DNA of 64,000 nucleotides from Owenia fusiformis. Lineage: Eukaryota > Annelida > Polychaeta > Sabellida > Oweniidae. The notes beneath the pieces were generated by a model. The model worked only from the letters and a program-made list of their open reading frames with translations, was not told where the DNA came from and ran no database searches. The stretch lies in assembly GCA_903813345.2 (NCBI GenBank), contig CAIIXF020000007.1, positions 5,277,730 to 5,341,729 of the forward strand. Reading direction: 5' to 3'. A program made the translations under genes and the position numbers. Positions within the stretch are counted from its first letter, which is position 1, and each line of letters starts with the position of its first letter. Positions 10,861-60,305 of this stretch are shown here, in pieces.

Positions 10861-11037
10861 TTATGATGAAGCGGGTGCACTGTCTCCACTAAGCCCCATT
10901 GTGATATCACGCTTTGTTGTAGAGCCATTTTGAAGTGACTGTACACCATTTTGTTTGTTTGTTTCATCATAATAGTTGTCATTTTCCTCTTCCTCGGACT
11001 GTTCCCCTTCACTCGAGCTTCGGTCGTCTTTTTGTAC
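10861..11037 (-). CDS. CERS: Ceramide synthase last exon (acidic cytosolic tail)
   Basis: Starts after a TTTTAG acceptor with VQKDDRSSSEGEQSEEEEND and ends GDSAPASS before TAA at 10861-10863. The K-x-x-K-D-D-R-S entry and acidic serine cluster are typical of CERS2-6 tails. It joins in phase 0 to either version of exon 9. Confidence 0.93.
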   Translation of the reverse strand, partial: VQKDDRSSSEGEQSEEEENDNYYDETNKQNGVQSLQNGSTTKRDITMGLSGDSAPASS

Positions 11038-14000: not shown

Positions 14001-17000
14001 TAGCTATTTCTAAAATTCCTTCTTGGGCATAGTTCTGTACGCATAAGGCATCAGCGCATAAAATTTGAAGCAAACCTGGCAACTGGTATTTGAGTTAGCA
14101 CCTGAATCGATGTATGGATAAAAATAGATGTCTTCTCTATACCCCTACCAGGCCCGTAGCCAGGGGGCTCGGGGGTTCGCACGAACCCCCTCTGGTCAAA
14201 ATTTCTTTCAAAATCATGCAGTTTTTCACCATTCTGACTATTTCTTGAGTGATTTTTTTGGCCAAATTTGCGAAAGTGAACCCCCCCTAGAATTTTTTGG
14301 AAAAGTTAACCCCCTTGGAAAATTCTGGCTACGGGCCTGCCCCTACTCAATTTCATTCTTTTATTCTCTATTTTATATTTTAAAACATGACAACCAAAAC
14401 TTCTATCTCATGGGGATATATTCATGAACAAATCTTATTGACATTTTGATACAAGCCTTTCTGTTCTCTGCACATGATGATGATAATGATGATTATGATG
14501 ATACATGGGTAATGATCATCATTGATATTTAACAAATATTGAAAGGGTAATTTATAATTGATTAATTAATCAATGGAATAGGTATACAGACAGTTTTTTT
14601 GACATTTGGGTCAAGTTTGAGGGGCAGTTTTACAATTTTTCATATTTAGAATGTTGTTCAATTTGAGATAAGGTAGCCATATTTATGAGTTTTTTATATT
14701 TGAAATAACATATCAGCTTGAAAATTACACAAATAGAAAATTGATCTTTTTAAAACAATTATGGTTTTGGTACTGTACCAAACAGTACCAAAACAGTACT
14801 AAATGGTACAGGGAAACCATGGGAATTAAGGTATTTGTGTTTCTGAATAATGTTTCATTTGCATATTTGAATCATTTTAGAGAGGAAATATTCAAAGAAA
14901 TGTTTTTGTTATTAATCTTAGTTGTTTGACTTAAGAACAAAACATCACTCGATGAAAATAATTGTATCACACAATCCCAATTAATCATTGTATCATACAA
15001 TTTCAAAATATGTGTATATCTGCATATGTCTGTTTATCTGATCCCAATATCAATATTTTTCAAATTCATAGAATTCAAGTAGTGCATAAAATTATTTAAC
15101 TGTACTAATTGTATCTAAAAAAGGGAAAGGAGGGATAAGGGGGAAACTTAAATAATTCTATTAAATATTCTATGAATTTAATTTTTCAAAAGCAAGCTTG
15201 TCAATCAAAACACTTCAACTTAATTATAAATATGCACATTAACACACACATGTGGAGCTCCTGTTTGTCTATTAGATTTAGGGTTTAAGTGCATGCATTC
15301 TTGAAAAACAATGATTTAAATAAACTCAATGCCTAGAAAATATGTAAAAATTCAATCAAAAAGCTCAGCATTTTCTTTGAAAGGTAAATCTTAGCAAAGT
15401 GTACATGCAAACCATTCCAGAAGGAAAAGCTAATCCAATAGACCTACAAGCCGCCATTAAGGATGGTGTTCAATTGTCAACAGTCATGGAAAAATGAAGT
15501 TAATTTCATTATGGTTTAACGGCAACACTCTCTTTTCCCCCATTCTATATATGACATTGAAAAATGTTGATTTGCCTTGCAGTTCAACTTCTCAAAGAAT
15601 CATCATTTGAATCATTATTTTACCCCTCCCAAAATTTAACTATGTCTTCCAACATCCATTGACAACTGACTCCATCCCTATTGTTATCAAAAAAAAATCC
15701 ATTCACCTTTCCAGTAATGACATAAAAGTAGACCATTCGGCAGATCATATAGAACCATATGACGTGCAGAACTTGCAGCGCCATCAACAGGAAAACGTAA
15801 AGGTACATAGCGTTGTACATTCCAATAATCATTGGACTCTCAATGCCAACTGTATATATCAACCTGCAGGAACAGAGTAACAGTCTCACCCTGTAGTACT
15901 CACTCGCATAAAAGGAACTCATTGATTCAGGACATAATGAAATTTCAACAAAGCTTGAAAATAATCCATTGGTTAAAAGTAGATTTTTCATGGATTTCCT
16001 GTATCCATTTAGTTTTTTGATGATTTTGATATCCAGGGGGAATTCAAAATTTAGGGGATGTGTCAGCATGCCTCAATCAATGAGCACCCAGTATACATTA
16101 CCATGCTATAATTGCACATTCCGACACCCATGCATAATGTAGGTAATAGCTACAGCAATGATGAAACAGTCTAATATATAGCCATAAGAATTTTAGCAAA
16201 CAGATTGCTAACGATATATTTAGATATGAGGTCAAAGGTACAATTTAACTAGAAACAGGAAATCAACTCATCACTTCATAATATTGTTTGTTACCAAAGC
16301 CATATACTGGCAACCATTGAAATCATGAATTTTCATCTGTGTAGATGAATTTCTTGTGGCTATACATAGACTGAAATATAAATATGGTATTGCATTAAGG
16401 AAATATGGCATCATATTAAGGAAATATGGCATAATATAAGGGAAATATGGCATTACATTAAGGAAATATGGTATCACATTAAGGAAATATAGCACTACAT
16501 TAAGGAAATCGGCATCACATTAAGGAAATATAGCAAGAATTAGTAATATTAAACTAAAATACTAGAGAGCATACAACAGAAAGCTTGGGTCACTGGTTCA
16601 GATTCTTGTCTTTTTAAAAAATCAATCAAGAGATGTGGCTTTCTTCTTCAAAAAAGAGATTATCTGAAAGCTCGAGGTTCAATCATAAAAGCTATAAAAC
16701 AGATGCAAACAGTCAATTTATCAATATCAATTTATGTTTCATGAGATATCTTTCCCTGTAATGCAGATATATAAAAAAGAATAGAGAATGTCTCAGAACA
16801 TATGAAATCAATGTCTCCATATAGATTCAACATTCTTAGTGTATTTTCAAAATGAAGAGTTCATGAGATTTATATAGGCAAAAAACATTTCTATTCATAA
16901 TCGCTCAAGGCCTTAAGAAAATGTGCCCAGGAATCAGAACCAGACAATAACCTCACCTTAGCCTAATATAAGCAAAAATTTGGCTAAATGTAGAATACTA

Positions 17001-20000
17001 TACACAAAACTATGTAAGGCATGTATAAATCTAGTTCATTGTTATTTTATTGTAAGTAAGTACACACATGCAATAATCCAAGATGCTTGCAAAAAGTGCA
17101 TGAAGGACTTCAATGGATTTCTATATGGCCCCTTAAGTACCTAGCAATACAACCACCTTCGTCTCTAAATTGCATGCTTGTTCAATTTTTATTTTTTCGG
17201 TAGTGATGGGTTATGCTAGACAATGAAAGACATGATTTTATCACAGAAGCTAAATAACATATACTCTCAAATTGGTAAATTGGAATTAATATTATACCTG
17301 TACAGAGTAGCATCACTGTACATCTGTTGTTGCCTTAAATATTTATCACTTAAACTTTTAATTTGAGTTTTCTTTGCAGACCCCATGTTTTCTCTCATGT
17401 TTTTTCTCATGCAGTATTCTCCACAAGATTAAAAATGGTTGTGAAATTCTCATTTCCATAGTCCAGCCCAACTTTTTCAAAATACTTTTTCATGAATTTT
17501 CTCATGTTCGAGTGGGTGTAAATATGTCTTCACAATTTCAAGTGGGTGTCAAGCACTTGTTCAGGACTGGGGAGAATACTGACATATCTCTGGTTAAATT
17601 GTTTTCTAAATCTTAACCATTGTTCAACTTATAATGTATAAACATCATATATGCTCTCTAACTGCTAACATGATTTTGCTCTGAATTAAGGCATGCACAA
17701 ATGAATTCTATGTTCAACGGCATCTAGTCAATCAAATATGGCTAGCACAACTTAAATACATAAAAATCAGCAATTTTCAACTCAAACATCATTCCTTTTA
17801 ATTTTTTTGTATATTAATGATGCATCGCTACAATATGAAAGGAATATGTCAATAAATTATTAATATTATTAATAACAATTATTATTAATAATTGTTTTAT
17901 ATAAATCACAATAATTTGTGCAGGCCTTATGATGATTAAGTGAGACCTTTATACTTTCCCAATAGATGTCCATTTTCAGGGTGCGATTCACATGTAACAA
18001 TGAAATAAGCAGTACATCTGCAATGCTAAGGAGCGCATGCCATGGATACTAATATACATAGCTTAATTATTTAAACATTAATTATGCCATAGCTTAAAGT
18101 TGCAGCAAATATAATTTAATATGACATATGCCATTACTTCTTAAGCTCAGCATTAACGCTTATGTAGCCCAAATATGTAGTTACATATACGCAAAGGTAA
18201 GCATTCATTTCATCATGCTGCCCCTTAATTGTCCCATTTCCACCACCTACCCCTGCATCCTCCAGAATATAACAAACACATTCTTGAAATATGTTTTTGC
18301 AAATTACTTTTACTCTTTTTTACTAAGAAAGGCGTATTAAATTCACTTTTTAGACAGTGTTTAAAAGGGATAAAAACTATTAATTGAGCGTGAAAATGAA
18401 ACTAATTCAAGAAGGATTATATAAGACACATAAATTTCTTTATTTTCTAGTTGATTAATAATAAGTGCGACAGATGATTTACATATTGTTGTATATTAGA
18501 TATACATGTGTACCAGATTAAGATGATGAGATGTGATAACTTGTGATATGATCTAAAGATAAACTTGAATCCATTAATTCATTATATTCGATCCCAATAA
18601 CTTATGTATACTCAATCCAAAACCTTTTGTTTACTCAATCCCAAAAGCTTAGTAAGTATTCTCATTCTCACAAGCTTACTAGACTTAAGATAACAAGATA
18701 TAGAGTAGATATAATTTATCTCCTTCAAGTCATATCAATCTGATATCCAGAACCTCCCTTTTAAGAAACATCTAGAAAAGTCTACAGATGCATAGATCAA
18801 TTACTTTGTTAATCAAAAGCGTGTCAGTTGCAATATGGCTATAGCCATAGTTATCAATGGATCAAAAAGACCCGCTTCCATGTTACCCTTTGAAGCTATT
18901 CAGAATTACAGGATGATTTTCAAATGATCTTTGGGTGATTGTTTTTTTATTTTGTTAAAATGCTGAATGGTTATTAGGAGGGTTCAAGTTTTGTTTTAAA
19001 GTTTTTGTTTTAAGTTTGATTAATTTGATTTGAAGCTGATTCATTTGATTAATTCGGTTGATTAATCATTGCTGATTCTTTCAATACAATATTTTAATTG
19101 AATGAAGATGTGGTCAAAGTAAAGGAATGATCTTTTGATTAAGTACAAAGAGATGATAAAATACTTTGACAGATTACAGGGTGGTCACTTTTTGATGATT
19201 TGGTGAAATACAAGGTGATTATAAGTGTCTAAAATGGTAATGTGTTAGTGATTTAAGCTACCGAGCGAACCATGTTAGTTCAGGGGTCAATTGTTATGGT
19301 TTTAAGGGGTTTAATCTTGAATCTTGATGTCAATTTGATCAAGACATCAATTGTTAAATAGCGAAATGCAATAGAGTTAAAGAGTCTAGTTTTCAGGATA
19401 CAAGCTCGCTCTTAAAAATACTGGAGCAATGATCCAAAAAAAATTTAACTTCACCAGACTTGGAACTGAAAACTGACCCCTAACTAGAAAATTTTGAAAT
19501 TCACAGTTCATGCCTATGTGTAATGTAGCTACGAGATGAAGAAAGCAGGATGGGTGCACTAAAAAAAGACTGAATATAAGAAAGCAAAGTTGTTAACAAA
19601 ACAACACACACAAGGGGACATGTATTGTAATGTAGAGAAACCTAGTAGCTCTCTAGAGGAACTTACAGTTACAATATCAAAAATATGTCAACAATGAAAA
19701 AAATATCACGACTATGATTAAAAAAGATTAGTCAAAGTAGAGAATGTTTTTTTTGAGAAAGAGTAGAAATTCTGTTTAAAAAATTGATAGAAAACACGAA
19801 TATCATTTTCTAATCTGTAGTTGACTAAATGTTACAGATTTTATAGGACAATAGGAGAATGAAATGTGAATATTAGGGTTCCTTGTCTCAGTTCTGCATT
19901 AATCTAAAGGCAGTTCATTTTATCAGTGAGACCATCCACCCACCTTCGTTAATGACAGACTTTTATTTTTTTGATAAAAAATATTGAGTTAGCAAAATGG

Positions 20001-23000
20001 GACCTTTTTCCCCATCACTCATCCACAAAACAATTGTGCTTTTGTGTGTAAACATGAGATGGCACCCTTGTTCTGCACATTATATCAACTGCAGATAGAA
20101 CATGAAATTCCGTTTTTAAATGTTATTAAATGTATGAATAAAGAGAGGAGTATGTAAGAAATCAGATAAATCTGGAAGTTCCCCATTGGCTGGAATCATG
20201 CTTGACGAATCACAATGAGGCTCACCTTGCCCGTGACTACATACAAGTAAACCATTCGGCATATCATATAGAACCAGATTATGTGAAGTATTTGCAATGT
20301 AACCAATAGGGCATTGAATACATAGTAGGCTGGTATCATATCCACTATGACATGGCCCTCAAACATTGTACTATGTAAAATTCTGAAAAATATGGCATTT
20401 ACCCATCAATAAGTTCATGCATATCATGTTTTTCTCGTGAAATGCCACGAAAATGCATGAAAAGCCATGAAAATGCATGTATGGGCTCACATCTTAGACT
20501 GTGCGATCGATGGCAATGTTTCAGACACTTTCCAGAAAATCATGAGGAAAAACATGAGATAACATGTGACGAACATGGCAGTCTGCAAGACATATATTAA
20601 AATCTCAAATTTTTCCATTCACCCAAAGGTTTTTAACGACTAAACTACGGTGTATTTCAGTGAGTAGATCCAGATCCTAAGTACCACTGTAGTAATCTAA
20701 TTTGGTCATGCAGGTTTATAAAAATCCAGGATCGATCACACATAATTCTGAGTAGTTATACTATATTCTAATGATCTGATTGGGTCGGAGGAAAACTATT
20801 TATCTCGCCAATTTACCAATTTTACAAGTATAAAAACCATGATCAAGAAATATGTCAATTAAAAGAGGCTTATGTATGTTAATAATAAGAAAAGCAAGGC
20901 TAGTGAAAATGAATTTTATACAAGAAAATACAAAACTACATCTAAGGTGCAAACCTAAGCAATACAATGTTACTACGAAAACATATAAAACTAGCCATTT
21001 AAAGATACAGGCTCATCTGCATAAATGTTTTTTGAAATATATTTTTTGTGTTTGGCTCTAATCAAGTTGAAATGCCACAGTAATATATTAACAAATGCTC
21101 GAATTTGAAAACAAATTCCCCAAATTATATTTGTTCAGATTTTAAAAATAAATATCACAAGGTAGATTGTTGTAGCATGTACCTATCATGAATTAAGCCA
21201 ACATAACATGTATGAGTACTCTACCCTCTATCCAGACTGAATCCATTTCATATATTGATATGTTTAAAAATGTGTGTCAAAACTAAGCCTTCAATTAGGA
21301 CCAAGCTTTCAGTGAGCCTGTATCCTTATCATTTGGTTCGAGAGACCTACAGAAATTGTGAAATTTATTTGTGAAGGGGAAGATAGGAAATACTAACTGC
21401 AGATCAAGTAATGTACATAGTAACATAATAATCATACAATGACAGTAAACTTGTGGCATAAATGAAAATTCAACAGAAAATATACAGAACATAATACATG
21501 TATTAAATTCAGTCCCATTTCAACACAGCAACTTTAAATCTATGTACATTAAATGACCTGGTTGGGAACTGAGGGTAAATTACAAATATAAGCCCTCCTC
21601 CTTGTTCATTCAGTCCCGAAAGAATTTGTCATATTTGACCAAATATGGCTTGTTTGATATGCTCTATACACTAATAGGAAAAACAGACGCTGCCAAAATT
21701 CCACACCACATTCCCTTAATATATACACAATAATCATATAATATAATTCCTTGACAGCTTCATACACGAACAAAATACTTCATACTCTGGATAACAGTAG
21801 AACCTCTAAAAATGTAAAGCAGTACCATTACATATTTCAGCCTGTAAATGAATATTCAGTGCATTGCAATATATTTAATACAACAAACTTGAAGAGTAAC
21901 AATTTGTAATAAGATATATAACAAAATAGCGAACAGGTGGAAAACTGCTCTAGATAACAACAATTAGATTACAAAATGACTAAAAGACAGGTGTTTACTG
22001 ACATTTTAGCAGAACTAATTCCTCTGAATCTAATCTGTTTTATCCAGGTATGAAATATTCAGTAAAATGTATGGGTAAACCCATGCTACATAACCAATGG
22101 TCAAAATAACAATGTCTTATGGCATGATATTGGTTTTGAAAAAGATAATAAAAATGACACAGGTCCAAAATTCAACAAATTTTTATTTCGATTTACTAAT
22201 TTCCGAAACCACAATGGTGTTGTATGCATGGGTTTGCTGCATGTGTTTAATGAAAACAGAATTTCATAAAGTAACAACAAAATTACTAAATTACTTGAGA
22301 TCTTTTTAAAGTAATCTTAATAGTAACAAATTTTATTATTTAATAATACTACATATAATCGAATAATCCAATATGAAATTAGATACATTTCCATGCAAAT
22401 ATGCTCGCGTGCATTTAAGCATGAACAAAATTAACCTCTTAAATTTTTTTCAAAATATTATCAACTGAGAAATTCTATATTTAATAAGAATTATTTAAAC
22501 TAGATAAAGGCAAATAGTTTTTTTGTATGAAATAAGTTTATACTTACTTAAATGGGAATATACAGAGACGTGTAATAAACCACATGACAGTGAAAACAAC
22601 GAACAATGCATCACAAGTCTTCTGGTATTTAAGATAGTTGAAAACCTTGGCAAGCTGAAAATAAAATTTAAAAAGTTTTGAGAGATGAAATAATAAAACA
22701 AAAGACAGAGGCCAATTATACTATCAGAGGAGCTAACATATGTTTCAGTATGCTTAGACTTGACTACAAGTTGTCTCAAAATCATCCCAACCTGATTTAA
22801 ATCATTATAGCTATCAAAATATCAAGACAGGACATAAATTTTATAAAGCTGTTCCAATAACAAAACATAAATAAATAGCAATCAACAATCTGCCTGGTAA
22901 ATTTTGACTAAAAACTGGAACATTTTGAAAGTTTGAGGTTTTCAAGCGCCCTCAATATTGTCTGTTCCACAAAATGGTTTTTCCATCCAATATGAAGTTA

Positions 23001-26000
23001 TAACAAAAATGTCAATACCTCCATAAAATAATCAACAGCGTCATGGCAACACAGTACAAGGGTTCCTACACGAACCATATTTCCTGCCCAAGAGAACACC
23101 ATCAGACCTATGGTTACAACATGGTGGATAACCATCTCCCAGAAATCCTGCAATGAAACACCACATGTAAGTATTGATTTGGTGAAACACCACATGTTTT
23201 TATGTCAAAAACCACATGTGCATTTGAATTGAGAAAGACAGAATGGGTTTGTATGTGTAATACATAAACATGGCAATCAGATCCTACCTCCTATTTTTGA
23301 TAATTTGGACAGTGCAATATCGATCTTATAAAAATAATTAAGCTCACTAAAGCTATAAAAACATCGAAAACATTTTACAAAGGATTGGTATCGATATGGA
23401 GAACTGAATTCAACAATGTTTTTCTCTTAAACCAATCATTGAAAACATTCTGTAAAAAAACACCGTATTTTATGTAATGTTGACTGACTGACAACAATTT
23501 AATGCGAAAGTTATTTAGAAATATTTTATATTACAGTTTTTGTTAACATTTTTTGTTTCTTTCGTGCAATTGTTTTTGCTCCTTTCTGCCAATTCTTGAG
23601 AATGAAATAAAATGTCTTTCCGAACCTTATTGGAACAAAATAACATATATAACATGTTTTTAGACCTCTCAATATTTATAGTTATACAAAAGAATTCTTG
23701 GTTGATTTTAAAAAAAGTATTCAAAATCCCCCAAAACAGATAAAAATCAAGATAAACCTTTTATTTCAAGACAAGATACTTTTTTAAAATCAACCCAAAT
23801 TTCCTTTGTACAATTACAATATTGAGAGACCTAAACATGTTTTGTTATGTCATTTTGTTCCAATGAGGTTCGGAAAGATGTTTCATTTCACTCTGGAAAC
23901 ATGATACCAAGAACAAAACAAGTGTTTGATGTATTGAATATAGATGAAAGTATATATATATTTTTCCAATCATATTGTTACCATTCAAAAGATGACCACT
24001 AAATTAACGATGTTTAAGTTTTTAGATTTTTTTCATGACTGGTTTAAGAGAAACACATGTTCAAAAAGTTCTCCATATTGATACCACTCTTTCAATTGAG
24101 TGCAGCAACTGGTTACTTCAATGTTGCAGAGATCAATTAATATAAATCAACATTTCCTTAAAGTATATAAACTTGTACAGCAACTTTAAACAATAACATT
24201 GAGATAATAACACTGACATGATCCCTGGAGCATGCTTTACCAAAATGCATGAAATCTCCATTCTGACACAAATAACATCCTTCTATGTTGAGCTCTGTTG
24301 CATTGCAGATGGACAGAGATAGAAAAGATGTGGCTTACCACGATTTGAAACCTCACCTTTCTCTTGATATCTGTCATGAGCGAAAACACAAGTGCCCAGT
24401 AGAATCCCATCTCCACCATGTAATACCAATATACATCACTGGTTATATGCTGGAAACGAGAATAAAATGAATGAGAACATAGTAAAACCAAGCCAATAAT
24501 GTGGAAACCTGAACAGTTAATATTTCTAGATCAGGAACACTTTCATAGGAATGAGTTAGTAAAATGAGCTGCATGTTGCACTGAACACCCTGTATGACAT
24601 CAGAGATTGGCAGTTTCTCCTCAAATGAGAGCAGAATTCAAAATAATCAAAATAACAATAAAAAATTGTCTCTCATAGAAATAAAATGTTTGTAAATATG
24701 AGTGAGTGTTTCTCAAGGGGTTATTTCTTAACTGGATGCAAAATTTGAAATGAGTGTGAAAGAATTGTCAAATTCATTGAATGAAAACCTACTTGCTCCT
24801 AAACTCAAATCACTATATCATATGTAGCTTTTTTCAAAGATATACTTCCATACTATAATTGCCATGGAGATGTTTAGATGACTTTGAAAATTTCTAAAAT
24901 ATTATTTCTAGCCTGAAGAGAAAGAGTAAGGACCATTTATACTATGAGGTATAGCTTTACTTCTTACCTTGAAAATGTACATACTTTTTACCTGATTTTC
25001 ATAGTCAAAGCAACATGTAGGAGAAAACCCATCAAATATCACTACTTAAACCATGACAAGGAATTTCAATATTTTTACTTCAAAGAACATGCCCTAACCC
25101 CTTCAAAATTACTTTTCACAAAGAGACTTGTACAATATACCTACATCAAGCCGTATGTTTTTCTAAAAAATCCATAGCTGAAATTTGATGGGTATCTCTA
25201 CAAGAAGCGGATATGGTTAAGCAAGGGTCACGGATAATAATTAAATCTATTTATAACACGTAACATGGACATGTATACATGTTACTTTAGGATTCTGATC
25301 ACTACATACATGTACATGTATTCACAGTGAGTATCATTATGGTGTTACCAAAGATACATACAACAAAGAGAATGATCACTCGTTCTCGTTTTCTTTTCTG
25401 CAGAGTGCAGTAGATATAATACACAGCTCTTTACAGAGAAAATGTACAGCTGTGTCTGGGAAATATACAGCTCTGCACAGAGAGATATACACATCTACAT
25501 ACTGAATATAGAGAAATATATATCTCTGTAAAGAAATATATAATAACTCCTATAGACAGAACCTGTCTGTAATGATCATGCACACATCTTCAGAGACATG
25601 TACATGCTCACTTTTAGGTAACTACTACACACTTGTAAAACACTTAAAGGCCCCATATAAAGTTTAAACCACATTAGCTAATACTATAGTCTTACCCAAT
25701 TTTATTATACTTTCTATGGGGCCTTTATCAGTTGAATTAATATATAGGCATCAACAAATTTGACAGATTTACCTAAACAATTAGGACTATAAGTCCAGGT
25801 ATAAGCAAGCTAAAATGTTGATACATTTACCCAAAGCTCACTCTGTGCCACCTCTAGCTTATTTAATGGGACATTCTTTCTCTTCAAAATAATTTTAACC
25901 TGACATCTATGTCAGCAATCCTGTGAATACTAAAGGCATGATTTCCACAACAAGCAACTCCAGGACAATTATAATAGTAATAAAAATAAAAATATACAAG

Positions 26001-29000
26001 GTGATCTAATAAAGATGGCTCCTTTTCGTTACTTACTACAAACTCTACTACTTAAAGATTTTTAAACACTCTTGTTATTTCATTAAGTAAGCAAAACTTA
26101 TCAGAGATCTTACAAAAATAGTACCAGGGGTTCGTTATTAGTTTAAGTAAGTCTTCACAAGCTGTGATCCTTCATAGAGATCTTAAGATTGTGAGCTAGT
26201 ATTGAATCTATAGTGACATCAAATTCTATGTTGACATCAAGTCTATAGTGAAACTGATTTAAAGAGAACACATCTATTCTAAACTGACATCAATGTAATA
26301 AACTGACATGTATCAAAATGGTGACATCAAAAATGACCAAATGAATCAAGTGATAATGTGGACCAAATATTCCTTTTCAAAACTACAGTCAATGATATTT
26401 TTATATTTGAAATTGCATTTGTTGAATTTAAGTCAAAATACCTGAAATCATTATATAAAAAATCAAATGATTTGCTCAGCTAAATTAAAAGTTAAATTGT
26501 TGACACGTGATAAAAAGCACAGATTTATGTCATATCACGATTCATTAACAGAAACACAATACATTACTACTTTATCAGTGTTAAAGATAAAGAAGATGAA
26601 ACAACAACGCATAAAAAACACATCAATACAGCCACTAGAAGAATGTCAACTCCACGGAGAAGCAAATCCCAGGGAACAAAATATATTTTCAAAGAGCATT
26701 CCTTTCTAATGAATTGGAAGCTCTCAGTATACTGACTTTTACATTCCGATCTACTTTTCTATATTTCTTATTCAAGTCAAAATCAGCATTATATTTAAAA
26801 TAGTTATTACATAGTGGTTAAGAAAGAGCTTGAGGTAGTTTCAAATTGTGATATCCCCAATTCCCTATTTCCATTGATTTTGTTCTGAACCTTAGTCTTG
26901 CTTCAAGACTATGGACCCCCCTTTCTACTTCTCCAACACAACACCTGGTGTAAAGTAGATGGGGGTCCAGGATCTTGAAGCAAGAAGTCTGAAAAGATTG
27001 CTGAATTCTCTTTATCCCAACACAAACTTTGTTCAGTGGGATAATAAAGGTGTTATATCGTATGCAAGATATTGATAAGGTGTGATCATTTAGAAATCAA
27101 CAAAAAGTCCAGTAGTCGACCTGTGTTTTATAATTTCCTAGTTTCATGAGTTCCTGGATCCTATGAGTTGGCTGTAAACATATAGCAATTAATATAATCA
27201 ACATTAGCAAATAGAAAGAACTAACATGTTGGTTTTGTTTTGCTTTAAAACTGTGGGCTCCCCTCCCAATCTAATCAACTTCACCAAACTATCACAAAAC
27301 TTGCAGATAGGTGGGTAGTGAGGGGAGAGGAGTCACAATTGATTGAAGCGAGACTAATGTTGGTTAGTAAAAGTATTAATATTGTATCATAATAAAAATG
27401 ATATAAATTGGAGATTCAATTCACAATTAAGTAATTTCCTTTTAAGAAATTTCATGTTCATTCTAACATGATTTATAGGGGTTTGAGTGTTTTTCAAATG
27501 TTGCCCTTTGTGTTCTCTCGGTATCAAAACCAATTACTACTGCCTGTGAGAAGTTAATATGAGACCAATTTTTAGCAGACTGAAGATGAGATATCTTGGG
27601 ATATCGCGCCATATTTTGAGATATCTTGCAATATCTTGATACATCTCACCCTCTGGTCTACTGATGACAACTTGTCCAAAACAATGAAAAATTGCAGTCC
27701 ACAGGTACAGGTGGAGCAAAATGGTCAAGACTAATATGAGATGAAAGAGACACACGAAGCATTAAAAACAAGGCATTAACATGCAAAATGTCACCACTTG
27801 CAATTTGTTATAGATGCCAACTGCCAAACACCAACCGCCAAACACCATCCAAAATAAGTTGGAGGCTATTACAATATGTCACCACTTGTGGTAGTGACAT
27901 AACAAGACACAAGACAAGAAGCAGATTAATAAAAGTCAATTTGACATTGAGAAGATTCGATGTAAAGAAGTAATACAAATAAAAACATAAATAAAATAAA
28001 CAAATACAGATTAAATTCTACAGGGATAATGCCATGAAATGAAAACATGACAAACTGAATAGATTGTAGTTTTTTCTTTATACATGTATGCTCTCATTGT
28101 AAAAAGGTAAGTTGGCGTACCTGAAATGGATGGCCGTACCAGCACTCTTTGGTATCCCACAGCCAAGGTTTCTGAAAGTAAAGTTATAATATTGATAACC
28201 TATAAATTAAAGTACCTGTACAATTTCAAACAAATTGGTGGAACACCTAAAGAGCTGAAAACCTAATTTTTCTGCACATTTTTGAAACAAGGCAAACTTT
28301 ATAGACACCACTTATGGAACAATTGACAACTTTATACAGAAACATTTTAAAAGTGAAACTATTTTGATTGCCTTGGAGGATTTTAAATTAGCTAACTATG
28401 ATGTGTTGACAGACAAGATGGATGGAGGGGTGTACATACAGCAAGAGAAGTTGGTGATAACAAAAGCTCACCCATGTCAGCTAAAAAAACATGAGTATCT
28501 ACATTTATCTCGTAAAATGTTTATTTCTTCAGAAAGTAATTTTTGACAATGTTATGAAACAAAAACATACAAAATAAGTCACAATTTTTGGAAAGCTGTT
28601 TTTAAGTTTTGATACTTATAAATACATGTACTGTATAATACTTACATCCCATAATATATAGATGCCATAGTAAAATGCGGTAAAGTAGAACAGGAATCTC
28701 CAACTGCAAAAAAAACATACAAAACTGAGACACCCTGTAACATGAAATAAGAAAGCACATTATTGTTACACCCTACACCCTGAACATATCAATATCAACA
28801 TATACAAGTATCTTAATCTGAATCTCATTTCTTCATTAATACATATTCTCTTGTGATATTGATGTTAATTTGAATCAGTGAGCTAAAATCAATATCTAGG
28901 CCAAAATGAAAATAGATTTTACCTTCTCCACTCAAAAGAAATTACCTGCACGCTTTGACAATATGTGATTTATTCTCAAGAGGACTATTGATTAATCAAA

Positions 29001-32000
29001 CATAAATTAGATCTGTAAGTCAAGAGATTATAAACGTGATTAGACGTAGCAAGGCAAGAGGCAGATGATGCAGACAATAGGGAGTTATTTTAAAAACTTG
29101 ATGTTCCTGACCGTGTAGAATTATGGTCCTTGGTGGTTATTACAATCCTCTTGAATATAGAGATATATGGAAAATAATTGTAGTTAGGTCCCTGGAAAAG
29201 TCAGAATTGGGAGTGGCACATTGTCCCAGGCAGTAGAAATATTACACGCTCACCAACCGTTTCTATTAAAAACATGTAACTAACCTCACTAATATTTCAA
29301 TTATAATATTATAGTGCCTATATTTCAATTATAATATTATAGTGCCTATATTTCAATTATAATATTATAGTGCCTATATTTCAATTATAATAATATAGTG
29401 CCTAAACACAATTATTGCTCGTTTATGATCCTTGCATTCAATGTGAAGTTGAGTAACTGTCAGTGTGTTACTGCATATAAAAACAATTATTATTTAGGAT
29501 GGGGAAAAAATGTTGAATTCATTTGTTTATCAACAATGAAGGACAAAGGTGGCATATGATTGTATAGCTCATATTCTATGGCCGTAATTCCCCGTATGTA
29601 ATCTGGATCATAACCCAGGATACCCTAACCCCGAAGGAGCCCTCACAATCATGTAATATATAAATGCTCATACACATAAATACTCATTTGCATAAATACT
29701 CACTAATATGAATACTCACCAAGTTTCCTGGAAGCGTTTCATAGGTGTATACTTCCCCTGTAACCTCCTGTAACGGAACCATCTTTCTATAGTTCTGATA
29801 CCTTTATCCGTTCGCTTACTCAAAGCCTGAAAATAGAAAGACAATTATTGTTTCTTGATATTTTGAGTTCACCCCTTCCTCTCCCCCTAAGCATACAACA
29901 TTAAATAATGTAGACATTTAATCAGCAGAACAGACTGATGGACAATTGGGCAATTCTATGACAATTGGGCAATTTTATGATAATTTGGCCAATTCTATAT
30001 TAATTGGGTAATCTATCAGCTCACCATGTGAACCAAAAATCAGAGACATAAAACAAATGTAAATTGAGATCAAAGTGACATATGAAGTTGTTATGTACAT
30101 ACAACAGAGCTGTATTTGGAAGATCATGCTATCAGGCCATCATATCATGAGGGAGTGAATCACTAATTCTAAATAAAATATTTTCTCTCATCATGCCCTT
30201 TTCTACACCTGTTCTCTCTAAAATCTGAATGAAATACCAGATTTCTGGCATTTCTAAATGTATTGTACTGTATTTTAGATGTACTATTAGTCTGCTTCCT
30301 ATTTATTCCCATCCGAACATCCCTCTTAAATGGTACATCCAAGTGGCATGATAAGGTGTTGGCTATAAATCATGGGAGTATACATGTCTTTACTGGCAAT
30401 AAAGTACAAAAGAGTTTACGTTCATAAAGATCCCTTGCAGCTTTCTTTTTTGAATTATTTTATATTTTGTATCAAAACCAAATCATTCACACTATTATAT
30501 ACATCGTGTGTCATTTGAATATAGAAAATGCAATACAGGCCCATTTTACGACTCAAAGCTTGAAATCTCTAATAACTGTCGTTCAAATGAGAAAATTGCA
30601 ACCTTGAAAAAACTATATACCTAGAACATCTTGACCTAATCTATCCAAACAGTCTGAATGACAGACTTATTTGATGCATTTTACATCTGTTAATCATATT
30701 GTTAAGTTACTGTTAGATCATGCCATATTTTGCTAGCTACATGCATACAGTGGTACAGTACCTCCTTTATATACAAATGTTAACTTATCAGGGTATTTCA
30801 ACTGACGTATATGTATCTAGTGGCTTGTTACAAGGTACATAGATAAATACTGAGAGCAGGCCTGATCTCTTAACCCACATATTCATGAAAGAATTTCTAA
30901 ATGAGCACTCGGCTCCCTATTATACAGTCCTTTCAATTGAACTTTGGTGAATCAGGGATTTCATTAGAAGCAGGCAACAGGCGATTTTCACCAGTTGTTT
31001 TCACAAAATCGCCTGTTGTTTTTAGGGACTTTTCCATGTTAATTTATGATTTCCACCTATTTAGCCTGTTGTGAAAATTTTTAGTGAAACCCCTGATCTT
31101 CGTAGCAAAATTTGCTGGTTTGTTCTATACTTGAATACCTATTTCCAAATATGTGGCAATGACATGGACTTCATTGACTTCCACTTCCATAAATTAGAAG
31201 GTTTATAATTGCAGGAATTTTAGAATGATGTATGTAGGGTATCAAATAGTGATTAGTAGTGTAAACTGCCCTGAAAGGGAATAATGTTCCCTCAAATTTT
31301 AGAAAGGTTTTCAGGAATACATGTAGGCAAATGCAGTAGTCTACGGGGAATGATTATTGATGGGTTATGTACTTTTGAGAACAATTTTTTCATGATTGTA
31401 TATCGGGAGTGACTGGAGGTGTATTTTTCACTATGTGGTATAGTAAATTATAGGTTTTGTTTCTTAATGTTCTTCAAATGTTCCATGGGAATTTCTGGGC
31501 TCTATCAGATTTTATGTGACAAAGCCCTATAAAGTCCCATAATATTGGTTTATAAAATTTTTCTTATATGGGACCTGTTTTGATTTCATGTTGTATGAGA
31601 CTCAATGGGGCAGAGTGGGATTTGATGGGGCTCAAAGATGGAACCTCAACACTGGCGGATTAGGGGGGGGGGCCTGCCCCCCCCTTGGGTGGGCCCAGAA
31701 AAAAAAATTGGACCCAAGTGGGATTTGACGGGGCTCAAAGATGGAACCTCAACACTGGCGGATTAGGGGGGGGGACCCAAAAATAATTTTGAGCCAAAAA
31801 AGCCTTTTAAGGCCTTATTTTTTAATTTCAGGCCACATTTTGAAGAAAATGGGCCTCAAAATTTCAAAATTTGGGCCCACTTTTGGGTTTTAAGGGCCCA
31901 ACATTTTTTTCCTCTGACCTGAAATTTGGGCCCCCCCCCCTTGTTGGTTTCCAGATCCGCCCCCGCTCAAAGAAGCAAGCATTGGGTGACTTGATGAGGT

Positions 32001-35000: not shown

Positions 35001-38000
35001 TAAGAGGGGGAAATATTTAAATTCTCACAAATAAAAATGGTAACCATATTCATAGATAAATGAATACATTATTGTAAAAGTCTTGTGCCTTGAATTAAGT
35101 TTACGCTTTGGGTATCTTTAAAAAAATAGACAGAAACATTCATAGTTTGATTTCAATGATATGTTGTACACTAACAGCATCAATACCATATACTCTTATT
35201 AACGAGAGAGTTTAGTTCAAATTAAAGAACTAAGTCCAAAGGTAAAAGTAAGAAGATTAAAATAACAACAGATACTAAACAGATTAAGTTCTAATATTGA
35301 TTTCAAAGCTCAATCTCAACAAACTTGATATAATAACTTAAGGGAGGGTGTCCAAATGCCAATATGTGTAAATGTAGTTTTAGAAAACAATTAATTCTAG
35401 TATGATTTAACCCTCCCCTCTCCCAAGTAAAAAAATATGTAATTTGTTGATCATGTCTTTTTTTACCTGAATCTTACATTTAAGATCAATGTATGAAATC
35501 TTCATTGACCCTTCCCCGTAACAGATTTACCTTGACAACTGGATACCAACCCTTATCCTGGTACAACAATATTCTTAAACATAAAGCTACAATACTGCAA
35601 TTATCAAGCTAAAGCTACATGTAGATTGGTTTTAATCATAACTTTGGCTCAATATGAATTCAGATTAGCAATTTCAGGCTCAGAATAATATTGCATTCTT
35701 GCTGCTGATTAATGATTAATAGGAACACCCCCCCCCCCATTCTATGTTTACAAAGGTAATCTCAAAACAAATATTTCATCTCAGACAATATTGATTACCT
35801 GTGCTTGAATGTTCTTTCTGGTCATAACAATTTCATTTAATTAATTTCAATAATTTAAATAAAGTGGTTAGTTTTATGGCACCACTGTATAGTTTTGAAT
35901 GTTATTAACATGACTGGCAATTATATTCCTTGCTAATTTCACTATTATTTGCCCAATTTTACGCTTGAAATGTGACCATCACCACATTTATGTCTAGAAC
36001 CTTTGTCATGGGATTCAAAAGCAGAAGTTAAAGGCAATTTACTCTCAGACTGATCGTTTTGTCCAAAATTATCTGTTCATTCTGAAGGATTTTGCAACCA
36101 TGACCTTGTTAAAATTAAAATCATAATAGTTTTCATTTGTAATATGCTTGTTATCAAAAAATCAAACCACTCAACCTATATTTTTTATTGACAATAACAT
36201 ATCCATAATATTATGTTTTGAAGCTACTAGCATTTAAGTATGAATAAGATGACGAGTATTGATTCCTACTTTGGCCATAAACAAATGATACCTAAAGATT
36301 TTAAAATCGTTATTCAAAAATTCCAAATTTTATCTCTTGGGCTCAAAATAGACTCAAGGGTAGATAGAAGAATATACATGTGACTATAAAAGTGCATAGG
36401 GCTTGGGAAAATTAATTCATATTTGAAGATACCTAGAAACATAAGGGGAGGGGAGTAATGCTTCAGTCAAATTTTATCTACGGCAACCATACGAGGGCAG
36501 CATAATGGGTGCCCAAAATCGAGAGAAATATACAGCACAGGGAGAAGCAGTACAATATAATGATTTTGCGAAGCTACTGCCACCATTTGACCACCATAGA
36601 GCAAATGTGGATCTATGTTATCACTCCTACTGTGAATGTGGCAGATGAGCATTCTCTGTGTCTTAACAGAAATCCTGCACACCTTCTCAGTTTATTTATA
36701 TGTCCAGTGTCAGATTGATCCAATAAATCTAAATCTGCCGTAGTAACTCTTAATATCTATCTACAACTGTATAACATTATAAGGAAAATATTCACTGTTT
36801 TTCACTATTTTCACTGAACATGCAGTTCAGATGGCCAGTATAAGGGAATTTATTTGTAGTGAATTTTCTGATATATATAAGGTCACAAAACTTTAGATTA
36901 TTAATCTATTTTATCGAATTTGTTTGTTTCGCTGTAAACCTTGGACACTATCTATCTCATCATAATTTTGAATAGGCACACAAGTTTGGTGGCATACGTT
37001 GCTGGTGAAACTTGGCAATAAATCTAGTTACATATTACCATTAACTTGTCAAATGGCAAAAGGTCCCAAACTCCTGTGAATATAAAGTAAGGACATCAAT
37101 ACAGCCATACCCCTTCAGTGGTCTTCACAGTACTTTTTCTCAAGTGGGTGCAAAATTCTCATTGTCACAATTTAGACTAAAATTGACCAAAATATGCCTA
37201 TTTTCATGATTTTTCTCATTTTCAAAAGGGTGCAAATGGATTTTCAGGTGGGTGCAAGCATTTTTTTCAAAATCTCAGGTGGGTGCTGCGCCCACTTGCT
37301 TTAATGCTGGGGAGATTACTGCCCTTTATATAAGTCAGACTTCATTTTCTTAAAAGGTAGCTTCATCAAGGAGAAAAAAATAAATTCTAAATCTAAGCAG
37401 TACCTGCAAATGAGTGCCTGCTAGGTTATATGATGACAACACCAAATTCCTAACGAAATGATAGTCACTCAGTTACTATGATAATGATAGGGAGGTTGGT
37501 GTAAGAAGAATCTAACATGTACCTGGAGATCTTTATGAGATGGGTGTTTCCCTATTTGACGATATGCTGCCTCTAAGACTGTATCTGGAGGGGGTGGTCT
37601 GTAGCCCTTTTCCCTGAGATTATACCACTTTCCTAGTGGATATGCCACAACACTGAAACAAATCATATTAGTGGTTTATACATCTGAATAAAAGTTATCA
37701 ACCATTGGCCATTACAGACCAGGCAAACAGGGTGGGAACACGGAGCTCGGCCAGATTCATCAATTTAGACTACTACACGTAGTGGCTAGGTGCAGTATTA
37801 ATTCTTAGAATAACTACACGACTAAGGCACTACTACACTGATGAATCTGGCCGAGCTCCATGGGCAGGAAGTGGGGTCACGCTAGTATGTATCCAACAGA
37901 CCGAATATAATATTCGGTCTGTTATGATTGATATATTTCCTATGGAAATCGCGGTGATATTTTTTGCACATAAATTTCTCGTTTATTACAAGAATGTTCA

Positions 38001-40095
38001 CCTTGAAAATTGCTGAATATGTTGAAGAGATGTTCATCTTAAACTAGAAGCAAAATTATTTGTATAAGGCGGGTACAAGTTGATATAAAATAATGAAATG
38101 TTCAGACTCACCAAAACTTCAGGATGTGTTTATAAGTACATCGCGAAATCAATGTCAAGGACGTTTGAGTTCACGAGATCCAAACGAGATATGCAAATTT
38201 TTTGAACTTTGACAACACATGACCACTTGATTACCTCGGCCTTCTTCATAAATATTTCCGCTCTATTTACTATAAATGAAGAAAATTAATCGGGATAATG
38301 ATAATAAATGACTAGATCTAATAAATTCCCGCACAAATGGAATTTATCAACACGCTTCCGTCCGCTCCACGTGTTATTTGTTTACAAATAGACTGACGTC
38401 ACTGGCTAAATCTCGTTTATCGTGAGAATTGGCATTGCCAAAATGGCTTGACCTAATCAATGGCTTCGCTACAAGAAGCGTCTGTACATTTTATGAATAT
38501 CTTCAGTAAGAGGACAATATACGAAAAAATAATATTGTAAGTACTTTACAAGGTAATCATTTTATCATTTAACAAACTTATTTGTAACATTTATTCAACA
38601 CCACATTTTACAATAGGTGACTTACAGTCTGAATATTTATTCAGACGAAGGATACAGTCTAGGGGTCACGCGGCTCCAGCCCCAACATTCCTTAGGACAA
38701 TAATGTCATGTTCATTTACATTGGGCTCATCCATTTCTGGAAATTAAAAACCTTGAAACCACACTTTGTGAAAATGTCTGACCAGCCTGCGTTATTGGGT
38801 ATTATCGACAGAACTGCTGAAGAAAGTTCAGACTGTCTTTTTGTTATGCTAGTCATGCCAAAATTTATTGAAAATGGCAAGATCATTGTGGACTGTTTTA
38901 GAAGCTGCCAAACAGACCAGATATTCAAAACAGAAACATGTAAATATTACAGACACCAAAATGTTATATCTCTCTTGATTGTATAAATATGTAGTAAAGC
39001 TGTGACTCTACTCTGGCCTCTACTGAAAAAACTATTCTGCACATCCCATTTGTTTCAACAATATATATTGTATTGTATACTTGTTTCTATAACAATTATG
39101 TAAACCAATTAGAGTACCTGAATTAGCAAACTTTATAACATGTCAGAGAAATAAAATCGCTCTTGAACATCGATGAAATCTAGGAACATGTTAATATGAC
39201 ACCTTTACCACGAGATTATATGTACCACAACATATCAATTTGTTCATTGCATGATATTTTATTATCTTAATACACAATATATATTGTTTTAATTTTCATC
39301 TTCATTCAAGGTTTCATGTCAAATGTAAAAAATAAGAAAAAGCACTTGATCTTTCCGCGGCAATGTGCATGCGCATGTAACGTACAATGCACATGTGCAC
39401 GAATGCACAAAAAGTTTAAAAATGGTGCGCACCAGGTCTGGAATTTCTTCACTTTAACTGCAAATTACACAACAAGTAGGACTTATTGTCACCATGAGTC
39501 ATGAAAAGGGCAAGTTACATTCAATTATCTTCTAAGTTACTTATTCCAGCGTGACTGCTGGAAGTTGGAAAACCACTTCACAAGACGGTATATTTGAATG
39601 TTCCATCAGCTGGCTTTTGAGCCAGTTGTGTTCAGTAAGATCCAATGATCGCACGACTGTAAGTCGTGGACCTTGATAATTGAGATCGTATGAATTCACA
39701 ACCAAGCGATTCAAAATCTGCCACACCCACTTTATTACCATTTGAAGATATTTCTTGGCGACATACACAATGTTTATTTCTATTCAGTATATTTTACAGT
39801 ACTTTATGTCCATGTTGCTGTTTTAAGACCCAGGTTTAAATTAACTCACAGAGTAAAGCTCCCTCAAATTTTAATTCGTTCCCGGCAAAAGTTCAAAAAA
39901 GACAACTCACTTTTCAAATATTTTTCTGATTAGCAGTAGAACTGCAGCTACGATGAACGGAACGTAAAGATCATGGAATTGTGGATAGTATATTCCATTG
40001 TCCTTGTTTTCCAATGATTTCCAAGTATGATTATTGGGTAACCAGAAACTTTCCGTCCAAAATGTATCCGCAAAACTTTTGTATATTGCAGCCAT
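10861..40095 (-). CDS. CERS: Ceramide synthase (CERS2-6 type: Hox-like plus TLC domain), ten-exon mRNA with an alternative penultimate exon
   Basis: Coding exons in transcript order: 40095-39911, 37652-37523, 29826-29720, 28703-28646, 28171-28121, 24449-24357, 23147-23019, 22654-22548, then either 20382-20226 or 15863-15707, then 11037-10861. The sum is 1194 nt and 397 aa; every junction is GT-AG and in phase. The enzyme N-acylates sphingoid bases with acyl-CoA in the ER membrane to make (dihydro)ceramide. Visible signs are an N-terminal sequon (NHT in LPNNHTW), a first membrane segment (about residues 43-60), a truncated homeobox (about 80-130, ending ERWFRYRR), and the Lag1p motif with HH at 216-217 and HD at 243-244. 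The tail is acidic and Ser-rich, starting KDDRSSSEGEQSEEEE, like the CK2-phosphorylated tails of vertebrate CERS2-6. The start codon lies in context TAAAAATGGCT. Which vertebrate paralogue it matches best is uncertain. Confidence 0.95.
12891..13432. repeat. Minisatellite of about 22 units, 18 or about 24 bp long (ATGGTTCAAATCAATGAAAA)
   Basis: About 22 imperfect copies of a unit centred on GGTTCAAATCAATGAAA lie in the intron between exons 9b and 10 of the ceramide synthase gene. Short units alternate with longer ones carrying GGTAA or CTGTTA spacers, and the middle part shows a two-unit higher-order period (ACGGTAA then ACTGTTA). Confidence 0.95.
14149..14339. mobile_element. MITE with CAGGCCCGTAGCCAG terminal inverted repeats
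   Basis: A 191-bp element with perfect 15-bp inverted ends CAGGCCCGTAGCCAG / CTGGCTACGGGCCTG. It contains C-rich and G-rich tracts but no coding capacity. CCCCTAC flanks both sides and may be the target duplication. A close relative lies at 32868-33064, and a deleted one at 32045-32124. Confidence 0.85.
15707..15863 (-). CDS. CERS: Ceramide synthase alternative exon 9b
   Basis: 157 nt, acceptor CAG at 15864-15866, donor GTGAAT at 15706-15701. It encodes the loop LIYTVGIESPMIIGMYNAMY, then LLMALQVLHVIWFYMICRMV and ends TGK. Length and both phases equal exon 9a. By my count, codons 1-24 share 5 of 24 residues with 9a and codons 25-52 share 22 of 28. Both copies are intact with good splice sites, so this is a functional exon duplicate, not a relic. 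Confidence 0.9.
16382..16530. repeat. Minisatellite, about 7 units of 20-22 bp (ATTAAGGAAATATGGCATCA)
   Basis: Direct repeats of a unit reading ATTAAGGAAATATGGCATCAC with point changes, in the intron between exons 9b and 9a of the ceramide synthase gene. The minus-strand frame through it spells a repetitive PYFLNVM peptide, which is a by-product. Confidence 0.9.
17385..17585. repeat. Dispersed repeat fragment (GTGGGTG family)
   Basis: Shares CTCATGTTCGAGTGGGTG-type and GACTGGGGAGAATACTG-type blocks with 37128-37320 and 58850-58985. Diverged copy, no coding capacity. Confidence 0.55.
20226..20382 (-). CDS. CERS: Ceramide synthase alternative exon 9a
   Basis: 157 nt, acceptor CAG at 20383-20385, donor GTGAG at 20225-20221. 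It encodes the loop ILHSTMFEGHVIVDMIPAYY followed by the last membrane segment ALLVTLQILHIIWFYMICRM and ends TGK. The loop resembles the vertebrate CERS5-like arrangement (a TTLFE-type sequence after FPFWILN, from my knowledge of that family). It is the exon nearer to exon 8. Confidence 0.92.
22548..22654 (-). CDS. CERS: Ceramide synthase exon 8 (end of Lag1p motif, splice hub)
   Basis: Encodes the AKVFNYLKYQKTCDALFV continuation of the Lag1p motif, a membrane segment and CIFPF. It ends with AA of a split Lys codon; either alternative exon 9 supplies the third base (A from the 20.2-kb copy, G from the 15.7-kb copy), giving Lys both ways. Confidence 0.93.
23019..23147 (-). CDS. CERS: Ceramide synthase exon 7 (Lag1p catalytic motif)
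   Basis: 129 nt, in-frame both ends. It encodes the core of the Lag1p motif: DFWEMVIHHVVT, then the GNMVRVGTLVL stretch and CCHDAVDYFME. The HH pair and the HD pair needed for activity in this family are both present, so the enzyme looks catalytically intact. Confidence 0.94.
23345..24105. mobile_element. Long foldback (inverted repeat) in a ceramide synthase intron
   Basis: The left arm (about 23345-23735) returns in inverse orientation at about 23760-24105. Examples are TGGTATCGATATGGAGAACT against AGTTCTCCATATTGATACCA, and TCTTTCCGAACCTTATTGGA against TCCAATGAGGTTCGGAAAGA. The arms are diverged, with small gaps. The element sits between exons 6 and 7, about 200 bp from exon 7 and 250 bp from exon 6. 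Confidence 0.75.
25646..25727. mobile_element. Short MITE with AAAGGCCCCATA ends
   Basis: An 82-bp hairpin element: AAAGGCCCCATA at the left and TATGGGGCCTTT at the right, perfectly complementary over 12 bp. No coding capacity; lies in a ceramide synthase intron. Confidence 0.7.
26897..26984. mobile_element. Short hairpin element with CTTGCTTCAAG ends
   Basis: CTTGCTTCAAGACTATGGAC at the left is matched in reverse by GTCCAGGATCTTGAAGCAAG at the right, with two small mismatches. The stem continues inward as CCCCC and TCTACTT. A partial relative occurs near 56110. Confidence 0.65.
29293..29404. repeat. Four-unit tandem repeat, 28 bp
   Basis: Four copies of a 28-bp unit starting TATTTCAATTATAATATTAT and ending AGTGCCTA; only the last copy has a change. 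The near-identity implies recent expansion. It is intronic, between exons 3 and 4 of the ceramide synthase gene. Confidence 0.95.
30951..31097. mobile_element. MITE with ATCAGGGATTTCA ends
   Basis: ATCAGGGATTTCATTA at the left is matched by TAGTGAAACCCCTGAT at the right in inverse orientation. The interior contains the inverted words ACAGGCGATTTTC and CGCCTGTTGT. About 147 bp, no coding capacity. Confidence 0.65.
31615..31975. repeat. Partly duplicated GGCGGAT-type MITE with G and C tracts
   Basis: The block GTGGGATTTGATGGGGCTCA through CACTGGCGGATTAGGGGGGG occurs at 31615 and again at 31718, a 103-bp step. The distal end carries AGATCCGCCCCCG, complementary to the GGCGGAT start. It looks like a short inverted-repeat element whose left end was duplicated. 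Confidence 0.6.
32045..32124. mobile_element. Internally deleted CAGGCCCGTAGCCAG MITE (80 bp)
   Basis: Ends CAGGCCCGTAGCCAG and CTGGCTATGGGCCTG match the 14149 and 32868 elements with one mismatch, but only about 50 bp of unrelated or rearranged sequence lies between. Confidence 0.75.
32868..33064. mobile_element. MITE with CAGGCCCGTAGCCAG terminal inverted repeats, second full copy
   Basis: A 197-bp element matching 14149-14339 along its length, including a shared internal 37-bp stretch that begins AAATTTCTTTCAAAATCATG. The 15-bp inverted ends are perfect. Flanks read TGTATC on the left and TATCCG on the right, a possible short target duplication. Confidence 0.88.
37128..37320. repeat. Dispersed repeat (GTGGGTGCAAAATTCTCATT family)
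   Basis: Shares GTGCAAAATTCTCATT, GGTGCAAATGGATTTTCAGG and GCGCCCACTTGCTTTAATGC with a copy at 58850-58985, and more weakly with 17385-17585. An interspersed, non-coding family. Confidence 0.75.
37523..37652 (-). CDS. CERS: Ceramide synthase exon 2 (first part of Hox-like domain)
   Basis: 130 nt between TTGTTTCAG and GTACATG. It encodes VVAYPLGKWYNLREKGYR and then the first helices of the truncated homeobox (DTVLEAAYRQIGKHPSHKDL). The homeobox continues in exon 3 (29826-29720) with the recognition helix RTIERWFRYRR. Confidence 0.92.
37739..37862. mobile_element. MITE with GGAGCTCGGCCAGATTCATC ends
   Basis: The left end GGAGCTCGGCCAGATTCATC is perfectly complementary to the right end GATGAATCTGGCCGAGCTCC over 20 bp, enclosing about 80 bp. 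It lies 90 bp upstream of ceramide synthase exon 2 in intron 1. Confidence 0.8.
37891..37923. repeat. Short perfect hairpin
   Basis: AACAGACCGAATA and TATTCGGTCTGTT form a 13-bp stem around TAA. Function unknown; probably another inverted-repeat remnant. Confidence 0.6.
38190..38450. promoter_or_regulatory. Cluster of transcription-factor-like sites in ceramide synthase intron 1
   Basis: Within about 250 bp lie an octamer-like ATGCAAAT (about 38195), an E-box CACGTG (38368-38373), a forkhead-like TGTTTAC, a full palindromic CRE TGACGTCA (38394-38401) and the palindrome TTGGCATTGCCAA (about 38429). The stretch is less AT-rich and has more CpG than its surroundings. It could be an enhancer or a second promoter; no first exon is identified. 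Confidence 0.35.
39911..40095 (-). CDS. CERS: Ceramide synthase exon 1 (start codon, lumenal N-terminus, TM1)
   Basis: Encodes 61 residues plus two bases. It starts MAAIYKSFADTFWTESFWLP, carries the NHT glycosylation sequon at a place conserved in animal ceramide synthases, then a hydrophobic stretch VPFIVAAVLLLI. The donor GTGAGT follows GAAAA; the split codon AA|T gives Asn at the junction with exon 2. Confidence 0.92.
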
Positions 40096-55781: not shown

Positions 55782-55848
55782 TTTGCCGTCTTGATTGATG
55801 CGATTCTTACTTGCGCGCCACGTCTGCATAAATGCGAGAAAAACACAG

Positions 55849-55856
55849 TTTATATA
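55849..55856 (-). promoter_or_regulatory. TATA box of FAMeT gene A, with conserved upstream element
   Basis: TATATAAA on the minus strand, 68 nt before the start codon. Just upstream, 55866-55891 is a 26-bp block (minus strand AAAATCATCCGATGGTCAAA and on) that is kept at the same place in gene B (60280-60305) with two changes. A second conserved block with GGGATCCGGGAGCGAG lies near 55958-55973 and again near 60367-60382. Confidence 0.65.
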
Positions 55857-55899
55857 CCACAGCGATGTGGTTTTGACCATCGGATGATTTTAATGTATC

Positions 55900-60217: not shown

Positions 60218-60305
60218 TTTGTCGGTGTTACGCAGCACGTCTGTATGAAATGCGACAGGTATAAAGCAGAACATAGCTCTGTGGTTTTGGTCATCGGATG
60301 ATTTT

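Follow-up and report, generated by a model that had tools for sequence, protein, structure and literature searches.

Duplicated loop exons in two ceramide synthase genes of the annelid Owenia fusiformis suggest a splicing switch in acyl-CoA choice

The stretch of Owenia fusiformis DNA analysed here, referred to below as the window, comprises 64,000 nt of contig CAIIXF020000007.1 (positions 5,277,730 to 5,341,729), and carries on its minus strand a complete gene resembling the ceramide synthases CerS2 to CerS6, with coding exons that run from 40095 to 10861. The gene has ten coding positions, as do human CERS3 to CERS6 (PMC6315813; here and below, articles are cited from the parts of them that were available), and the ninth, which encodes the loop between transmembrane segments (TM) 6 and 7 together with TM7 itself, is present in two copies, exons 9A and 9B (A and B hereafter). 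Exon 1 (39911..40095) supplies the start codon, the N-terminus and TM1; exons 2 (37523..37652) and 3 (29720..29826) encode the two parts of a Hox-like domain; and the TLC domain, the match to which begins at the end of exon 3, continues through exons 4 (28646..28703), 5 (28121..28171) and 6 (24357..24449). The Lag1p motif, with its His-His and two Asp residues, lies in exon 7 (23019..23147), and exon 8 (22548..22654) closes TM6 with the residues IFPFK. These are followed by A at 20226..20382, B at 15707..15863 and the last coding exon at 10861..11037, which provides the sequence DDRSSSE, an acidic tail and the stop. Exons 1 to 5 and the last exon were located by tblastn with CerS6 (provisional sequence) and a gene model, with additional Pfam matches for exon 4 and, below cut-off, exon 3; exons 6 and 7 rest on phmmer matches to CerS6 and the gene model, exon 8 on the gene model, and both copies of exon 9 on the gene model and alignment, which also served for exon 7.

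Several tests identify the product as a ceramide synthase of the CerS2-6 type, predicted to N-acylate sphingoid bases. The joined exons 6 to 9A matched human CerS6 (8qz6) with an E value of 3e-48 (phmmer), and positions 1-198 of the TLC domain PF03798 were matched by both isoforms, at 181.5 bits with A and 172.7 bits with B, from residue 136 onwards. The His-His, Asp, Asp, Arg and Trp positions are unchanged in the alignment with CerS6. In the Hox-like domain, residues 100-135 are 47% identical to CerS6 (provisional sequence), and a Pfam homeodomain match over residues 87-130 reached 18.2 bits, under its cut-off of 22.9. Exon 7, at 129 nt or 43 codons, is equal in size to human CERS2 exon 8 (residues 205-247, 43 codons; PMC7876150). 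The place where the C-terminal DxRSDxE motif of ceramide synthases is expected (PMC8789539) is taken by DDRSSSE, which departs from the motif at one of its five fixed letters.

An earlier note on this DNA, made from its letters, had recognized the ceramide synthase and described two intact exons of equal length and phase, both fitting between exon 8 and the last exon, with 5/24 residues agreeing in their first part and 22/28 in their last; all of this was reproduced. A (20382-20226) and B (15863-15707) are each 157 nt long, run from phase 2 to phase 0 and are bounded by AG acceptors and GT donors (...tttttcag and gtgagc for A, ...tcctgcag and gtgaat for B). The phase is 2 at the end of exon 8 (22654-22548) and 0 at the start of the last coding exon (11037-10861), so that the eight upstream exons, either A or B, and the last exon make an open frame of 397 amino acids with a terminal stop only. 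Because an exon of 157 nt shifts the frame when both copies or neither are included, only one of the two gives an intact enzyme: if A and B are joined together, a stop is met at the eighth codon of B, and if both are left out, no stop is met inside the last coding exon as modelled. Mutually exclusive use of A and B is very likely.

How exclusivity might be enforced was considered from the introns. The intron between A and B, at 4,362 nt, is too long for steric exclusion to be the basis of exclusive splicing. A distant branch point was rejected as the device, because the nearest upstream AG lies 51 and 21 nt from the acceptors of A and B, and 8 and 31 nt from those of E1 and E2, the loop exons of a second gene described below, which leaves no very long AG-free zone. 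No similarity indicative of shared elements was detected between the three introns, RNA structures not having been searched for. Genome-wide searches with A and with B recovered the two copies; the search with B added one match (E 0.10, with an internal stop) that we take as chance, and no third copy of the loop exon was found at a convincing score in the window, in the second gene or genome-wide. Seven of the nine other coding exons matched nothing else in the window at E 0.05, and the remaining two gave one weak second match each (exon 5, nine residues, E 0.04; exon 6, E 0.010, with an internal stop).

Three further observations concern the same introns. On the minus strand at 21841-21760, reading by eye finds an acceptor-like site and 27 in-frame codons that end in a stop, with an AATAAA about 400 nt further on; this stretch could be a truncating terminal exon which, if used, would cut the enzyme before TM7. 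A possible exon near 20581, also noticed by eye, was discarded, as its frame does not agree with that of exon 8. A short-repeat array, TTTTCATTGATTTGAACCATTTACC-like, occupies about 12900-13450 on the minus strand, within the intron that separates exon 9B from the last exon.

The 11 residues that set the specificity of ceramide synthases were reportedly defined by Tidhar 2018, known here through citing papers. In CerS5 they are E299-S309 (PMC10122649), and they align to residues 9-19 of the exchanged stretch, inside its diverged part as the earlier note had proposed: EGHVIVDMIPA in A and ESPMIIGMYNA in B, equal at four of the 11 positions and different at seven. In the CerS6 structure, the acyl chain occupies a narrow tunnel whose walls are mainly side chains of TM4, TM5 and TM7, and which the TM6-TM7 loop seals at the endoplasmic reticulum (ER) end, limiting chain length (PMC11919693); an earlier article named the 11-residue stretch a putative cytosolic loop (PMC8789539), and we have followed the structure instead. 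The earlier note had also held that the diverged part covers exactly this loop, and that the last membrane helix is kept constant. The loop is indeed covered and most of TM7 is nearly constant, but divergence also reaches back into the last part of TM6 and forward across the lumenal half of TM7, so that ‘exactly’ was an overstatement. The diverged part nevertheless still matches the end of the acyl tunnel. Prediction of a chain-length preference for each isoform from shared residues was tried and set aside as too weak to call: over the 11 residues, B has 6/11 in common with CERS5 (provisional sequence, end residues from PMC10122649) and 5/11 with CerS6, and A has 2/11 and 4/11, respectively.

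Overall, A and B are identical at 28/53 residues with the split Lys codon counted, which brings the figure for the loop part to 6/25. In the TM7 part (28 codons), the proportions of differing synonymous sites (pS) and non-synonymous sites (pN) are 0.75 and 0.098, and in the loop part (25 codons) they are 0.77 and 0.53. Changes in the TM7 part fall on 14/18 synonymous versus 7/66 non-synonymous sites (P = 7.5e-8), and the non-synonymous contrast between loop and TM7 parts gives P = 2.9e-7; these P values are indicative, because the cell counts are rounded and the border between the conserved and loop parts was adopted from the earlier note. Synonymous sites are saturated; purifying selection acts strongly on the TM7 part, whereas the TM6-TM7 part has diverged. 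The introns flanking A and B, compared over 500 nt on each side, showed no detectable similarity, and on that ground we rejected a recent duplication. The two exon versions are old and well preserved.

A second gene with the same arrangement lies 11 Mb away on the same contig. A TLC-family search of the whole genome, which does not detect A or B individually, returned eight matches: two in the window gene, three in the second gene (C7:16.3 Mb), one on contig C1 and two on contig C12. The surroundings of the C1 and C12 loci (L004-L006), compared with CerS6 and CerS1, gave a best E value of 0.009. The second gene, modelled in its 3′ part only, is 48% identical to human CERS1 over 58 residues around its exon E2, and the exon preceding E2 is 49% identical over 59 residues (provisional CERS1 sequence in both cases); its two partial joined proteins score 125.7 and 128.1 bits against PF03798, and contain the TLC domain, the Lag1p motif and a CerS1-like loop region. 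Judged by these matches it is CerS1-like, and no CerS gene besides this one and the window gene was found in the genome. Sensitivity was limited: neither exon A nor exon 7, used as genome-wide queries, recovered the CerS1-like gene, so a further diverged CerS gene may exist.

The loop exons of the CerS1-like gene, E1 (C7:16316866-16317019, 154 nt) and E2 (C7:16315872-16316028, 157 nt), both run from phase 2 to phase 0, and from their lengths the inclusion of both or neither would again shift the frame. They are equal at 35/52 aligned residues, with a pN of 0.17 in the flank and 0.46 in the loop, a pS of 0.84 overall, and a loop-versus-flank contrast of P = 0.0013. Because the borders of E1 and E2 lie upstream of those of A and B at both ends, the pair probably arose by a separate duplication, and for the same reason a common origin before the split of CerS1 from CerS2-6 is not favoured; sequence agreement leaves the matter undecided, since over 22 residues at TM7 E1 is matched by A at 13 (59%) and, counted by eye, by B at 11. 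The CerS1-like gene also has two C-terminal exons, C1 (C7:16306982-16307080) and C2 (C7:16302571-16302705; both L007), which are 58% identical over 33 residues and may serve either as alternative last exons or as a further mutually exclusive set. Across the genome, the loop exon of either gene and the C-terminal exon of the CerS1-like gene each occur in two copies, and a scan of viral contigs found no relatives.

We propose, with a probability of roughly 0.7, that the window gene yields two ceramide synthases by mutually exclusive splicing of a tandemly duplicated exon, and that the exchange alters the choice of acyl-CoA. That A and B are used in separate mRNAs is highly probable, and if both are so used, a change in acyl preference is likely. 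The shared exons would supply the catalytic His-His/Asp site, and the exchanged exon both the lumenal TM6-TM7 loop, by which the acyl tunnel is closed at its far end, and TM7, whose lumenal half would help to line the tunnel. Swapping this cap may allow an acyl chain of another length or shape to fit, so that another acyl-CoA would be joined to the sphingoid base. The interpretation gains strong support from the second CerS gene having its own duplicated loop exon, an arrangement that the CerS1-like gene would have evolved probably separately. The exon switch as interpreted in the earlier note is thus well supported, with a duplicated loop exon in both of the CerS genes found. The animal probably makes by splicing a part of the enzyme variety that mammals draw from six genes; the earlier note's contrast with six separate genes in vertebrates is right for human (PMC6315813).

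Several points weigh against this interpretation. The diverged part is broader than 11 residues, and the role of those residues was established in work on vertebrate CerS2 and CerS5/6 and is carried over here by analogy. In the loop part alone, constraint is not significant between A and B (P = 0.13) or between E1 and E2 (P = 0.058), so the loop part could be partly relaxed rather than retuned. A scan free of any assumed border, with three segment lengths, showed clustering of the changes at only modest significance (P 0.025-0.049 for A/B, 0.008-0.082 for E1/E2). Lastly, the acceptor of E1 has a weak polypyrimidine tract, and a further AG stands 8 nt upstream of it.

The breadth of the divergence would also suit an exclusive switch that is real and tunes something other than the acyl chain: stability, the dimer partner, lumenal regulation, turnover or the sphingoid-base side. 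TM7, too, is encoded by the exchanged exon, and in CerS6 this helix is in contact with the sphingoid-base side (Trp318) and the inhibitor FB1 restrains it (PMC11919693). However, the H/N315 and W318 positions lie in the constant rest of TM7 and, like most of that remainder, are the same in A and B, and in both genes the changes cluster at the lumenal end, where the acyl tunnel is capped; we therefore regard non-acyl tuning as unlikely. It is very improbable that one of the exons, most likely B, is a relic out of use. B does stray further from the family pattern, to which A is nearer, and is without the L..T and FN positions common to A and CerS6. But B is open, with correct phase and splice sites, the intron flanks have decayed while the exons were kept, and the second gene has the same arrangement. 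Moreover, among 20,000 copies of A randomly mutated to the same nucleotide divergence, 13% stayed open and none kept 28/53 residues; amino-acid conservation thus exceeds that of neutral decay, and by this measure B is not a decaying copy. Least probable of all is that the second exon serves mainly as a dosage control, with protein B minor and with both-in and both-out messages frameshifted, as they are, and wasted, since for such a purpose a membrane helix need not be conserved in its own frame, and decay of the both-out message does not follow when no stop is met in the last coding exon as modelled.

Returning to a switch in acyl-CoA choice, a wider proposition, which we put at about even odds, is that this lineage diversified ceramide synthesis by duplicating exons rather than genes. 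Both CerS genes would have separately doubled the exon for the acyl-tunnel cap, and the CerS1-like gene its C-terminal exon also, to yield a minimum of four enzymes with differing chain preferences, the ratio of which would depend on splicing particular to tissue or condition. The chain length of ceramides is important for membranes and for signalling, and if it is under splicing control, a single gene could shift ceramide composition fast and in individual cells. Selectively maintained exon pairs would then offer a natural experiment that shows which loop residues determine chain length, and the doubling of the same structural element in two CerS genes would be convergent evolution that points at the specificity determinant.

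Elsewhere in the window, tandemly duplicated gene-like open frames lie on the minus strand at about 54270-55890 and 58940-60350; the frame at 54721-55125 matches the Pfam family Methyltransf_FA (E 2.7e-7), and that at 55518-55889 has no Pfam match. At about 43300-49500, both strands contain several copies of a repeat whose open frames resemble one another (among the matches listed, one shows 97.8% identity over 89 residues), and the one frame from these repeats that was compared with Pfam, 45238-45516, gave no match.

Devices of this type are already known, in the gate exons of ACSL genes and in coq-2, and we found no report of a ceramide synthase case: among the matches listed in the open-licence PMC literature (titles and starts of abstracts), none describes an exon switch in any CerS, which is not proof of absence, and in the available part of PMC8659336 ceramide synthase occurs solely in a reference. 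Human CERS2 provides an example of alternative ceramide synthase splicing that alters the ceramide profile, the skipping of exon 8 in breast cancer, but there the Lag1p exon, corresponding to exon 7 here, is removed together with activity, and specificity is not exchanged (PMC7876150). Exon 10 of oyster AOX is likewise a tandem duplication in a mollusc enzyme from which one copy is chosen, although it is the last exon and its use responds to air exposure, unlike the substrate choice proposed here (PMC5589949). Exons 6a and 6e of coq-2 in nematodes, annelids and molluscs are exclusive exons of a polyprenyltransferase that alter its substrate; the substrate is a ring rather than an acyl chain, and that case is backed by RNA-seq and by exon deletion in C. 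elegans, whereas the CerS pair is known from sequence (PMC7434440). In human ACSL6 and ACSL1, two paralogous genes for acyl-CoA enzymes, an exclusive exon pair swaps a short fatty-acid gate motif, much as proposed here; these belong to the acyl-CoA synthetase family, and a Phe/Tyr change is stressed there, whereas most of the lumenal cap differs in the Owenia exons (PMC1543647). Gene duplication has also been a route in invertebrates, since Parhyale has 12 CERS genes whereas other arthropods have 1-4 (PMC5111886); diversification in invertebrates is thus not confined to duplicated exons. Within the CerS1-6 family itself, the enzyme and the loop are the same as those discussed here and acyl-CoA preference differs from one CerS to the next, but the variety comes from separate genes (PMC6315813, PMC11919693) and not, as we propose for O. 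fusiformis, from a choice between two exons of one gene.

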